DNA of 64,000 nt from an uncultured Pontibacter sp. (GTDB lineage Bacteria; Bacteroidota; Bacteroidia; Cytophagales; Hymenobacteraceae): assembly GCF_947495565.1 (NCBI RefSeq), contig NZ_CANLZM010000007.1, positions 124,001 through 188,000 of the forward strand. Reading direction: 5' to 3'. Below are positions 1,308-29,138 of the stretch, piece after piece; position 1 is the stretch's first letter; every line of letters begins with the position of its first letter. Position numbers and translations under genes: made by a program. The notes under the pieces are model-generated. The model was not told where the DNA came from and ran no database searches. It saw nothing but the letters and a program-made list of their open reading frames with translations.

Positions 1308-1631
1308 TTACAGGAAAATGATGTCCTTCACCACATCGGTGCCAGCCTCGGTGTTCAGGATCTCAACCACCTTGCTTTTAGACATGTTAAGCTCATGCTT
1401 GAGCGGGGCTGAGGTCAGTTTCACAAACAGTTTTCCGTCCTTAAAGTATAACTGCTGCGTTTTCAGGGCGATGGGTTTGCCCATGATTTTCTCCCAGTTC
1501 TGTACTAGTTGCACCTCGCTCAGCTTGCCGTCCAGGCGGTAAGCCTGCATCAGCGCCTTCAGGCTCTCCCCAATGGGTTGAATGTCTGCCTTGCGTTTAT
1601 CAATCGCCTCTTTCTTCTTGTAATAGCGCAT
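1308..1631 (-). CDS. DUF721 (DciA-like) domain protein
   Basis: This 107-residue protein is a single DUF721 domain: a basic start (RYYKKKEAIDKRK), the helical core IGESLKALMQAYRLDGKL, the typical VQNWEKIMGKPIA segment and the strand pair LYFKDGKLFVKLTSAPLKHEL. The family includes DciA, which loads or supports the replicative helicase DnaB in many bacteria. Assignment to that role here is inference. In Bacteroidota the gene usually sits directly after recF. Here the HARE-HTH gene separates the two. Confidence 0.8.
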   Translation of the reverse strand: MRYYKKKEAIDKRKADIQPIGESLKALMQAYRLDGKLSEVQLVQNWEKIMGKPIALKTQQLYFKDGKLFVKLTSAPLKHELNMSKSKVVEILNTEAGTDVVKDIIFL

Positions 1632-1694
1632 GGGATTTTTTTTGGGTGAGTGGGTGGATTAGTCCGCGTAATAAATAGTACTTAAGCTATCCTA

Positions 1695-2618
1695 TTAGCT
1701 ACGCTTTATTCTTTTTAATAAGTCTTCAGATTCAAATATTTTATCATATTTTTCCTTTCGTACTTCTTGGCTTGTAATATCAACTCTGATTCTTTTTAGG
1801 AAATCCTCAAAGTCCTTATTCATTGCCAACTTATTAATAGTTTCCCAATCTAAACTTTCTTTAAACTTGGCAGGAAGAATTATTTGAGTTGAATTCGGAT
1901 CATCTAAATTCAAATGAATAACTCCAATACCAAAAGCTGATGATAGCCTTGTTAACTCATTTATGAAATCTTCATCTTTAGAGATTTCTGCAGCAACTAA
2001 ATAGCCTTCGTTAGCCCATGAGGAATTTGAAACTGTTTGAAAAAAGCTTTCTCTCAAATTTGAAAAGTTTAGTTGCCTTTTAAGCTCAAACGAAAGTATT
2101 CTAATGGAAATGTTGCCAATTGCGGAGCTAAGCTCTAAAACGTTGCTCTTCCATTCATCTATTGGGAAATAACATCCAACAATGTCCGGGTGTACCCATT
2201 CTCCAAACTCTTTCTTCCCTGATTTTGAATGATTAATAGTCGTAGTATAGCACCTTAAAAAGAAAAAAGCATAATAAGTCAGAAAAGCATGAAGGTCTTT
2301 TTCTAAATATTCTTTCTTTTTAGATTGGATGTTTTCTGTATCCTCTGATCCGTCTTCATATTGTTTTAAATCAATAGCTTTCTTGAGCTTCTTTAAGTAG
2401 AACCGTTTAGGTCTAGCACCAACCACACCAAAAGGTGTTTTGTTATTATCTCTTGCATTTACATAAATTTGGGCACCTAAAGTAGCCCATGGTGTTTTAC
2501 CTTCACTATTAAGAAGCTTATCTAAACCCTTATCCGTTGCGAATTTCCAAATTTCATTGGCAGTTAAGGGTGATTTTTGCTCATTAAGAACTTGTTCAGC
2601 TAGCTCAAGAAACGTCAT
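1695..2618 (-). CDS. HARE-HTH protein with a putative PD-(D/E)XK nuclease domain
   Basis: The first 75 residues match a HARE-HTH domain: TFLELAEQVLNEQKSPLTANEIWKFA, then the G-x-TPWATLGAQIYVNA core and RFYL. HARE-HTH domains bind DNA and are often fused to restriction or modification enzymes. The C-terminal part (about 100-245) shows E106-KDLHAFL, HPD145-IVG, E178-L-K180 and SFFQTVSNSSWANEGYLVA. Together these fit the E...D...ExK layout of PD-(D/E)XK nucleases; this is my reading, not a search result. Base composition is strongly AT-rich (18 of 60 G/C at 1741-1800, against 44 of 60 in recF at 3001-3060). It sits between recF (44 bases upstream) and DUF721, which suggests insertion. A defence or DNA-repair role is inferred. 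Confidence 0.65.
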   Translation of the reverse strand: MTFLELAEQVLNEQKSPLTANEIWKFATDKGLDKLLNSEGKTPWATLGAQIYVNARDNNKTPFGVVGARPKRFYLKKLKKAIDLKQYEDGSEDTENIQSKKKEYLEKDLHAFLTYYAFFFLRCYTTTINHSKSGKKEFGEWVHPDIVGCYFPIDEWKSNVLELSSAIGNISIRILSFELKRQLNFSNLRESFFQTVSNSSWANEGYLVAAEISKDEDFINELTRLSSAFGIGVIHLNLDDPNSTQIILPAKFKESLDWETINKLAMNKDFEDFLKRIRVDITSQEVRKEKYDKIFESEDLLKRIKRS

Positions 2619-2662
2619 AAGGCCTTCGTGTCAAAAGGATTAATATTTAAGTGTTAGAGTAC

Positions 2663-3775
2663 CTACAACTCCCCAATCACCTTCACCTCCCCCTCCCTCA
2701 CTTCAAATCTACGGATACTTTCTGAGAGGCCTTCGAGTATTTTGTCGGTGCGCTCCAGGTGGGTGTCGGTCAGGAAGATCTGGCCAAACGTATGGGCGGC
2801 TACCATTTGCATGAGCTTGGTGATGCGCTTCTCGTCAAGGCGATCGAAAATATCGTCGAGCAGGAGCAGGGGCTTGTGGTGCTGCCGCTGGTCCATTACC
2901 TCAAAGTGCGCCAGCTTCAGGGCGATGACGTAGCTTTTCTGCTGCCCCTGCGAGCCGAAACTTTTCACGGGGTTGCCATCCATCAGAAACACAAAATCAT
3001 CCTTGTGCGGGCCCACGGTGGTGCGCTGCAGGGCCAGGTCCTTGCGCTCGGCCTGCTGCAGTTTGTAGGAAAAGTCGCTGCCCTCCAGCTGGCTTTTGTA
3101 GGTAAGCGATACTTCTTCGTGGCTGTCGGAGATGTGGTGGTAGTGCTTCTGGAAGATCGGCACGAAATCCTGCAGGAAACGCTGCCGCGCCTGCACCAAC
3201 TCCTCACCGAAAGGCACCAGCTGCTCGTTCAGGATCTGCAGGTAATCGCGGTCGTAGTAATGGCGTTCGGCAAACTGCTTTAGCAGGGAGTTGCGCTGCT
3301 TTAGCAGGTAGTTATACTGTATAAGCTGCTCCAGGTACACGTGGTCGAGCTGCGACATCAGGCTGTCGAAGTACTTGCGGCGCTCCTCGCTGCCCTCGCG
3401 TATCAGGTCGGTGTCGTAAGGCGAGATAAGCACCACCGGGAAGCGGCCGATGTGGTCGCTGATTTTCTCGTAAGGCGCCTTGTTGTGCGTCACGGTCTTT
3501 TTCTGGCCGGGCTTCAGGCTTACCTGCACCGTGTGGTTATTGGCGGCCACGTCAAAGCGGCCCTTCACCATGAAAAAATCCTCGCCCTGTTTTATACTTT
3601 GCACATCGGTGCCCGGAAAGGCGCTTTTGGTCATGGAGAGGTAATGGATGGCATCCAGCAGGTTTGTCTTTCCGCTGCCGTTATCGCCTATAAAGCAGTT
3701 GATATGCTCCGAAAAGCTAAGCGCGGCTTCTTCGTAGTTTTTGAAAAACAACAAACTGAGATTTTCGAGGAGCAT
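2663..3775 (-). CDS. recF: DNA replication and repair protein RecF
   Basis: RecF is an SMC-like ATPase that binds gapped DNA and helps RecO/RecR load RecA. This 370-residue protein has the full layout: an N-terminal strand with F-K-N-Y, the Walker A GDNGSGKT at residues 30-37, ISPYDTDLIREGSEERRKYFDS in the middle, the ABC-type signature SFGSQGQQKSYVIALKLA and the Walker B LLLLDDIFDRLDEKR. The length is normal for the family. The ATG at 3775 begins MLLENLSLLFFKNYE, as expected. It is divergent from pdhA with 141 bases between, and is first in a minus-strand run followed by the HARE-HTH gene and DUF721. Confidence 0.95.
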   Translation of the reverse strand: MLLENLSLLFFKNYEEAALSFSEHINCFIGDNGSGKTNLLDAIHYLSMTKSAFPGTDVQSIKQGEDFFMVKGRFDVAANNHTVQVSLKPGQKKTVTHNKAPYEKISDHIGRFPVVLISPYDTDLIREGSEERRKYFDSLMSQLDHVYLEQLIQYNYLLKQRNSLLKQFAERHYYDRDYLQILNEQLVPFGEELVQARQRFLQDFVPIFQKHYHHISDSHEEVSLTYKSQLEGSDFSYKLQQAERKDLALQRTTVGPHKDDFVFLMDGNPVKSFGSQGQQKSYVIALKLAHFEVMDQRQHHKPLLLLDDIFDRLDEKRITKLMQMVAAHTFGQIFLTDTHLERTDKILEGLSESIRRFEVREGEVKVIGEL

Positions 3776-6437: not shown

Positions 6438-6451
6438 AGTATAAACTGTAT

Positions 6452-6499
6452 AAAACACAAGCCCCGTGCTATACTTAAATAGCACGGGGCTTGTGTTTT
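6452..6499. terminator. Bidirectional terminator between ribH and a convergent barrel gene
   Basis: A perfect 21-base inverted repeat (AAAACACAAGCCCCGTGCTA then T and its complement) surrounds a 6-base loop, ACTTAA. A-rich and T-rich ends serve both strands. The loop region contains the TATACTT motif. Confidence 0.85.
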
Positions 6500-6510
6500 A
6501 TATGGGAGGA

Positions 6511-20476: not shown

Positions 20477-20539
20477 CAAAAGGATCCCGGTAAAGGAGCC
20501 TTTTATACTTACAGAAGCAGTTTACAACTTGGTTTATCT

Positions 20540-20656
20540 TTAGGAGAGGTAATTGTAGGCCATAATGGCGAAGCTACAAATAACATACACGGCAAGTATA
20601 AAGTTGTTCCTTTTCAGCTTCCGGTTCTGCTGTTTTAGCTTTTTAAGTGTTTCCAT
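20540..20656 (-). CDS. Possible 38-residue single-helix membrane protein
   Basis: A short frame absent from the track reads METLKKLKQQNRKLKRNN, then FILAVYVICSFAIMAYNYLS. That is a strongly basic amphipathic start and one hydrophobic helix near the C-terminus, a layout common in real small membrane proteins. Coding status is uncertain: there is no recognisable family, and the upstream AAGTATAACTTATATCATATAA is AT-rich but not a clean promoter. It lies between recJ and the GH25 gene. Confidence 0.4.
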   Translation of the reverse strand: METLKKLKQQNRKLKRNNFILAVYVICSFAIMAYNYLS

Positions 20657-20727
20657 AGATCTCTTATATGATATAAGTTATACTTTGAAAAAAGCTATGA
20701 CTTAATAAGCAGCAACAAACACTAATA

Positions 20728-22465: not shown

Positions 22466-22512
22466 AATGTTGAATTGATAATTGCTGGTTGCTTTTTCTC
22501 GTATGCGGTCCT

Positions 22513-22893
22513 ATGCAAGAGAGAAAGCATTTGCAGTTAGATGACTTGGAGGCATATAAAGTAGCATTTGCCTTAAGCAATTTTGTTTGGGCTAGGGTAG
22601 AGCAGTGGGACTATTTCGCAAAGAAAAGTATAGGGATACAATTTGTTACAGCTATAGATAGTGTCTCAGCGAACATTGCTGAAGGATTTGGCAGGTAAGG
22701 TAAAAAAGATAAGATTAAGTTTTACCGATATGCCAGGGGTTCTGTTTACGAATGCTTGGATTGGAATGAGAAAAGCCGTGTCAGAAAGTTGCTAGTGCAG
22801 CAGGACTATGACCATATCTTTGTTGCTTTACAAAAATTGCATAAGCTAATAAATGGTTTGATAAAAGTAACCAACGACAATCTTAGCAATTAG
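22513..22893 (+). pseudogene. Four-helix-bundle protein (S23/Avd-like fold), interrupted by an in-frame stop
   Basis: From the ATG at 22513 the frame reads MQERKHLQLDDLEAYKVAFALSNFVW through SANIAEGFGR, meets TAA at 22696-22698, and then continues in the same frame with GKKDKIKFYRYARGSVYECLDW to a normal stop at 22893. Intact family members read GFGRY or GFGRF followed by x-KKDKIKFYRYARGS, so one base change of a Tyr codon to TAA explains the break. The frame otherwise has no damage, so the mutation is recent, or the stop is read through, or it is a sequencing error. Standalone members are common in Bacteroidota; function is unknown. Confidence 0.8.
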
Positions 22894-22923
22894 CTTAAAA
22901 ACAATTAACAATCAGCAATCACC

Positions 22924-24450: not shown

Positions 24451-24481
24451 AAAGTTAGAAAGTTAAAAGGTTAGAGAGTTA
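24442..24481 (+). repeat. Five tandem octamers GAAAGTTA at the end of the GH3 gene
   Basis: GAAAGTTA occurs three times in a row, followed by AAAGGTTA and GAGAGTTA. The stop codon TAG (24448-24450) is made from the first and second copies. Confidence 0.85.
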
Positions 24482-24587
24482 TACTTCTAATATTGCAAGT
24501 TTAGCGCGAGCGTAACTTGTGGTTTTGAGTGGCTGCAAGTTGACTCTACTGGAGAATCTTTGGTTTACTAATAGTAGGCTTATTGTT

Positions 24588-24631
24588 TATACCTCACCAA
24601 TCATACTTCAAAGTATGATTGGTGAGGTATA
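24588..24631. terminator. Long perfect palindrome, probable bidirectional terminator
   Basis: TATACCTCACCAATCATACT plus T pairs perfectly with its complement 21 bases long, across a 2-base CA spacer. It lies between the convergent GH3 and TIGR00266 genes. Termination is likely, but the tiny loop makes it almost a perfect palindrome. Confidence 0.65.
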
Positions 24632-24715
24632 TCTTTTGCGAATTAAGATAACAATTTTGTAGGAGCATCCGCATAACTCCCATTTCTAATTCCTAACTTA
24701 AACTGTAGCAAACCG

Positions 24716-28863: not shown

Positions 28864-29060
28864 GGGTTAAGGTTGTGCTTTAATCTATATTGATGAGCCT
28901 CATTTGGCGTAAGCGTCCGCTTATGTCTTTGCTGCTTCGGCTAATGCAACTTAAACCAAGTCCCCCTTGGAAAGGGGCAGGTCGATGACTCCGGATAGCT
29001 CAAGCTACAGAGCTTATACTTGCAGAGCAGTACTTACAAACTCCCCTCCTGAGTAGCAAA

Positions 29061-29132
29061 GGATAAATACTTTATGCAAAAGACAGAGAAGCTATACTTT
29101 CCTCCCTGTCTTTTGCGTAAAAGTATTTATCC
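29061..29132 (-). terminator. Large inverted repeat downstream of ridA
   Basis: GGATAAATACTTTATGCAAA then AGACAG pairs with CTGTCTTTTGCGTAAAAGTA then TTTATCC. The arms are about 26 bases with one bulge and one mismatch, and the 19-base centre contains TATACTTT. It is larger than a normal terminator but is correctly placed to end ridA transcription. Confidence 0.55.
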
Positions 29133-29138
29133 TGAAAA

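Follow-up and report, generated by a model that had tools for sequence, protein, structure and literature searches.

The low-G+C gene lying between recF and dciA in the window, as we call the whole 64,000-nucleotide stretch of Pontibacter DNA analysed here, is a member of a known family, HrgA, and sits in an interval that serves as a cargo slot across the genus, holding other genes or nothing in other genomes. Our preferred reading, to which we give a probability of roughly 0.6, is that its product is a solitary nuclease acting in one-protein modification-dependent restriction and that it is the current occupant of this genus-wide slot. The original prediction, made from the letters of the window, proposed an open reading frame wedged into the normally adjacent recF–DUF721 pair; both the frame (on the minus strand) and the insertion are borne out, and the neighbour labelled DUF721 is the helicase loader DciA (Pfam PF05258). 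What escaped that prediction is that the slot is a cargo hotspot of the whole genus.

Table 1. Features of the recF–dciA region, in coordinates of the window
Feature	Position	Strand	Remarks
recF, upstream constant border of the slot	2663..3775	-	PF02463; conserved in relatives
recF–dciA interval (cargo slot)	1632..2662	.	1031 bp here; other genes or nothing elsewhere in Pontibacter
HrgA-family gene (HARE-HTH + PD-(D/E)XK-like nuclease)	1695..2618	-	307 aa, 33% G+C
HARE-HTH domain, residues 1-61	2436..2618	-	Pfam PF05066, E 2.4e-13
Predicted PD-(D/E)XK core, residues ~104-285	1764..2309	-	Invariant columns, AlphaFold, Foldseek
Motif residues of the predicted nuclease core			E106, H143-P-D145, E178-L-K180, Q194
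Short low-complexity tract directly upstream of dciA	1632..1655	-	ACCCACTCACCCAAAAAAAATCCC
dciA ('DUF721'), downstream constant border of the slot	1308..1631	-	PF05258, E 1.4e-17

The gene is foreign in composition. Its G+C content is 33.4%, against 54.8% in recF and 49.7% in dciA, and its GC3 is 26.9%, against 77.4% and 70.4%, respectively; the low G+C originally read from a 60-base sample stands, but the values given for the flanks (73% for recF and 60% for DUF721) were overstated. It is codirectional with recF, from which 44 bp separate it, and may be transcribed by read-through from it. With recF and dciA as its neighbours, no methylase or restriction gene adjoins it, in agreement with the solitary character first ascribed to it, and the adjacent cognate methylase gene that marks a type II R-M system is missing at this locus.

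The HARE-HTH domain is confirmed by a Pfam score of 50.7 bits, above the gathering cut-off of 25.9. The C-terminal domain is predicted to be a PD-(D/E)XK-type nuclease, a prediction supported by conservation and modelling. The four residues first put forward as its core (E106, D145, E178 and K180) are invariant, along with Q194, in an alignment of 22 relatives, which also share a conserved QxVSNSSWA stretch; in a wider set the equivalent D, E, K and Q are invariant in all 68 rows. The full-length AlphaFold model is fair (pLDDT 79.6), and the domain modelled alone with 68 relatives reaches a pLDDT of 91 and a pTM of 0.88. Its elements follow the order helix (E106)–strand–strand (D145)–strand (E178-x-K180)–helix (Q194)–strand, which is the topology of the PD-(D/E)XK core, with D145 and E178-x-K180 on adjacent core strands and the glutamate on the preceding helix. 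The structure-prediction check proposed at the outset thus gave a model with this topology. Its best-supported Foldseek matches among solved structures are restriction enzymes and nucleases, though weak by E-value (best 0.006): PaqCI at probability 0.98 (TM 0.42–0.46, E 0.007–0.02), NucC at 0.69 and Ecl18kI at 0.60, with SgrAI and EndoMS lower, the remainder including spurious matches to APOBEC. A profile search of PDB sequences yielded nothing above noise, and other PDB sequence searches were unconvincing. Given the weak Foldseek E-values, it is the combination of motif, topology and structural matches that carries the fold assignment.

Interest in HrgA proteins has come mainly from H. pylori epidemiology, where they serve as markers, and we know of no biochemical activity or function for any of them. 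The protein of the window has no model in PADLOC or NCBIfam; it is homologous across both domains to annotated HrgA proteins, aligning in tblastn with the HrgA of H. heilmannii at 31% identity over 99% of the query (E 8e-38). Plasmid searches with tblastn match entries named 'HrgA protein' in Helicobacter, Vibrio, Alteromonas, Proteus and Shewanella, and 'HTH domain-containing protein' in Leptospira and Persicobacter; matches annotated as HrgA, or listed next to such matches, have 31–43% identity at 61–99% query coverage. At least 564 stretches of bacterial and archaeal GTDB genomes encode a relative. Phage and viral-contig searches returned none, which leaves a phage origin of the gene unsupported. 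A fixed operon partner was sought and not found among the 127 immediate neighbours of 78 relative genes: no family appears more than three times, the most recurrent (at most 3 of 127 each) include YhcG/DUF1016, type I R and Shedu, and RecF is absent from the recurring families. Association with an R-M locus is variable, lacking for the present gene, seen in some relatives and lacking in others, and so is no strict criterion. On Vibrio and Proteus plasmids (L257, 3758-4693, and L259, 3758-4687) the HrgA gene is placed directly behind hsdS and just before hsdR, an operon arrangement that hints at HrgA and type I restriction being functionally connected.

The comparison of the recF–dciA interval covered 50 Pontibacter genomes plus 30 genomes from elsewhere in the family; counts refer to 49 Pontibacter, one of the 50 having no recF within 4.5 kb. 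One or two genes occupy the gap in 39 of the 49, while the other 10 have gaps of 30–296 bp (30–56 bp in six of them) with no gene of at least 80 aa. Three sister genera (23 genomes) have gaps of 50–250 bp with no recognisable gene, and a fourth has occasional short genes there. The comparison of recF loci for which the original prediction had called found the HrgA gene at this site in only two of the 50 Pontibacter genomes, that of the window and P. roseus DSM 17521 (G003), whose copy has 85% protein identity; the genomes closest to the window genome carry other cargo or none. The cargo, nearly all codirectional with recF and dciA and mostly AT-rich, sorts into about 21 kinds that differ between most sister species. 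Besides HrgA these include MntA-HepT-type NTase/HEPN pairs (four genomes), AbiJ_NTD4 (a PADLOC PDC-S32 match at 7e-87), a 241-aa PD-(D/E)XK-like protein (four genomes, recognised from its motif by eye and a weak PADLOC match), a HEPN-like 192-aa protein (motif by eye), SLFN_AlbA_2, DUF488, DUF1643, an LRR protein, a sigma factor, lipoproteins and membrane proteins. Since roughly every second cargo family lacks an annotation related to defence (the last four kinds belong here), defence is not the sole business of the slot.

Some of these occupants deserve mention in their own right. The PD-(D/E)XK-like gene, 241-255 aa in length, occurs in the gaps L152, L167, L169 and L195 (genomes G021, G032, G464 and G011); it bears a PPDF...AVEITQ motif, belongs to no Pfam family, has its weak PADLOC match to PD-T7-1 (E 0.004) and is a candidate new defence nuclease. 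The 192-aa gene (L151 and L154, in G014 and G035) has an RNAFAH motif of the HEPN RxxxxH type and no Pfam family. A conserved gene of ~210 aa and no known family, containing LIRLHLDNLLRF, fills the gaps L155, L159 and L160 (G023, G020 and G001) and is under purifying selection (dN/dS ~0.07-0.1). About 20 small accessory genes share this position with defence and toxin-antitoxin genes, which makes the unannotated ones candidates for new single-gene defences.

Ordinary intergenic variability is rejected as an explanation of the slot. As a control covering this one region of the genome, ~35 neighbouring gene pairs were compared across 40 kb that are syntenic in 12 Pontibacter genomes. The length of most gaps differs by no more than a few bases, and the few that vary in length, mostly between convergent genes, contain mostly non-coding DNA, usually near 50% G+C; recF–dciA is the only interval in which each of the 12 genomes has a full-length, AT-rich gene codirectional with its neighbours. 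Of the variable convergent gaps, those at 6438-6510, 20477-20727, 24451-24715 and 28864-29138 range from ~60 to 1800 bp among Pontibacter, and their filling possibly consists of dispersed repeats; in G455 one such gap contains a 328-aa HTH/transposase-like ORF. Elsewhere, where the window has 22466-22923, relatives hold a 126-aa ORF (MQERKHLQLNDLEAYKVAF...) that looks like a four-helix-bundle family, and the 61-aa ORF remaining in the window looks broken by comparison.

The turnover of the cargo is rapid. On a tree of recF and dciA from the 49 Pontibacter genomes the cargo type changes 31 times among 22 states (counting 'empty'), against 37.5 +/- 1.1 changes with shuffled labels, which indicates that cargo is inherited to some extent but exchanged very fast. 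RecF and DciA are 98% identical between the window genome and its sister G036, yet the former carries HrgA where the latter carries an unrelated membrane-type protein. In G021 and G464 the 241-aa gene has 90.4% DNA identity, compared with 78.1% for recF and 73.8% for dciA, and a dS of 0.36 compared with 1.99 for recF; it moved between species at recF–dciA, a clear case of transfer for at least one occupant of the site. As for HrgA, the copies of the window and P. roseus differ by a dN of 0.108 with synonymous sites saturated, which shows the gene to be under purifying selection. Their pS of 0.84 exceeds that of both recF (0.55) and dciA (0.48), making vertical inheritance from a common ancestor of the two genomes unlikely and suggesting that each may have gained HrgA separately.

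These data pose the question of how genes can be exchanged between fixed borders when no recombinase is in sight. Between sister genomes homology stops at the recF stop codon and resumes ~18–26 bp before the dciA start. Many relatives possess a CACTCATTCA-rich tract before dciA similar to that of the window, which is itself common to the sister genome for only ~18 bp. Tracts of the ACTCATTCA type are enriched in the same place (18 of 49) and are absent from the window, which has CACTCATTCA instead; as they are also variable, the flanking tracts do not qualify as a dispersed insertion target site. Searches around the slot for a recombinase, an att-like site or an integron signature found none, and attC-type consensus core pairs occur in only 4 of 49 gaps, at unrelated positions. 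Without consistent pairing in the 49 gaps, integron-like core sites around the cargo are rejected, and the occupants do not qualify as mobile integron cassettes. Single genes or small pairs, many of them defence-related, would be swapped in and out of the slot, the breakpoints falling at the stop codon of recF and shortly before dciA, and the simplest account is that this would proceed through homologous recombination in the conserved recF and dciA. It is conceivable, though we put it forward tentatively and think it less probable than not, that the interval is a dedicated, integrase-free cassette-exchange site with clean border swaps of single, mostly AT-rich genes between species, perhaps via the low-complexity tracts, forming a one-slot rotating defence locus read from recF.

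As to the function of the present occupant, we infer that it is most likely a solitary modification-sensing, type IV-like restriction nuclease. The N-terminal HARE-HTH domain would bind DNA and probably read a modified base, the C-terminal PD-(D/E)XK domain would cut the DNA so bound, and the target would be incoming DNA, presumably of phages, restricted by a single protein. The reading of modified bases is a prediction taken from the literature: HARE-HTH domains fused to REases have been proposed to discriminate modified DNA (PMC10853773), and a 2024 paper considers them more likely to sense cytosine than adenine modification (PMC11037411). Methylases were sought elsewhere in the genome, as suggested originally. 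N6/N4 methylases are present on contigs other than that of the HrgA-family gene, including a type I-like N6 methylase gene (PF02384, C14), and a single weak N6 match falls ~90 kb away on the contig of the gene itself; a C5 cytosine methylase was not found in the genome. The latter result fits a 5mC-dependent cutter, which would need such absence. It is the literature proposals together with this methylase content that make a modification-dependent nuclease the most likely function, and the fold, catalytic residues and contexts make the restriction activity of HrgA directly testable.

The M-S-HrgA-R operons of the Vibrio and Proteus plasmids, along with the type I-like methylase gene of the genome itself, would suit an accessory role instead, the protein being a restriction subunit that partners type I R-M enzymes encoded elsewhere and has been orphaned here. 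We think this unlikely, however, as most relatives have no recurring neighbour and the Pontibacter copies are solitary, on a different contig from that methylase gene. The toxin-antitoxin and abortive-infection families among the slot-mates bring to mind a growth-blocking or abortive-infection nuclease, toxin-like in the manner of MntA-HepT and AbiJ, but no antitoxin gene adjoins the HrgA gene, and 307 aa of sensor and nuclease better fit direct restriction; we regard such a role as distinctly improbable.

A repair nuclease recruited to the RecF pathway or to the transcript of recF, the specific link entertained by the original prediction, has in its favour the codirectional position 44 bp behind recF and the presence of the mismatch nuclease EndoMS/NucS among the weak structural matches. 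Because ~20 unrelated families fill the same slot in other species, however, the position is uninformative on recF function, and RecF does not recur beside the relatives of the gene, so that we consider this link very improbable. The patchy presence of the gene (2 of 50 Pontibacter) might even suggest a degenerate or meaningless low-G+C insertion, but the frame is intact, the catalytic residues are kept, and the low dN with saturated synonymous sites and 85% protein identity to P. roseus refute this notion and leave it next to no credence.

The preferred reading, that of a lone modification-dependent nuclease in an exchangeable slot, can be set against several known systems. The same fusion of HARE-HTH with a PD-(D/E)XK REase, likewise proposed to discriminate modified DNA, is found in Dnd and BREX neighbourhoods (PMC10853773, PMC12839542), but no Dnd or BREX genes adjoin the Pontibacter gene. 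Winged-helix type IV endonucleases of the DpnI and HhiV4I type also combine sensor and nuclease in one protein and need no partner methylase, the likeness being one of architecture; HARE-HTH differs by an extra helix and is thought likelier to sense cytosine modification (PMC11037411). The slot itself resembles accessory and defence hotspots flanked by core genes in its conserved flanks, fast-changing content and defence genes among the cargo, and differs from them in usually holding one small gene or pair, with no integrase and with breakpoints at gene ends. As far as the open-licence literature searched extends, we found no earlier description of a hotspot at recF–dciA, and the genus-wide slot is to that extent unreported.

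The protein, by contrast, is a known family member, and the new small defence or repair arrangement first envisaged is not supported: a lone hrgA was described earlier in A. baumannii AB031, also between unrelated genes with no modification gene nearby (PMC6563999). In H. pylori, according to what is cited in PMC4687069, PMC4615327 and PMC6563999, hrgA is the gene that replaces hpyIIIR. The HrgA genes of Helicobacter, Campylobacter and Vibrio are likewise single genes that replace, or are placed between, other genes. Unlike H. pylori hrgA, which has the methylase gene hpyIIIM downstream of it (PMC6563999), the Pontibacter copy has no methylase beside it and occupies the multi-occupant slot between recF and dciA.
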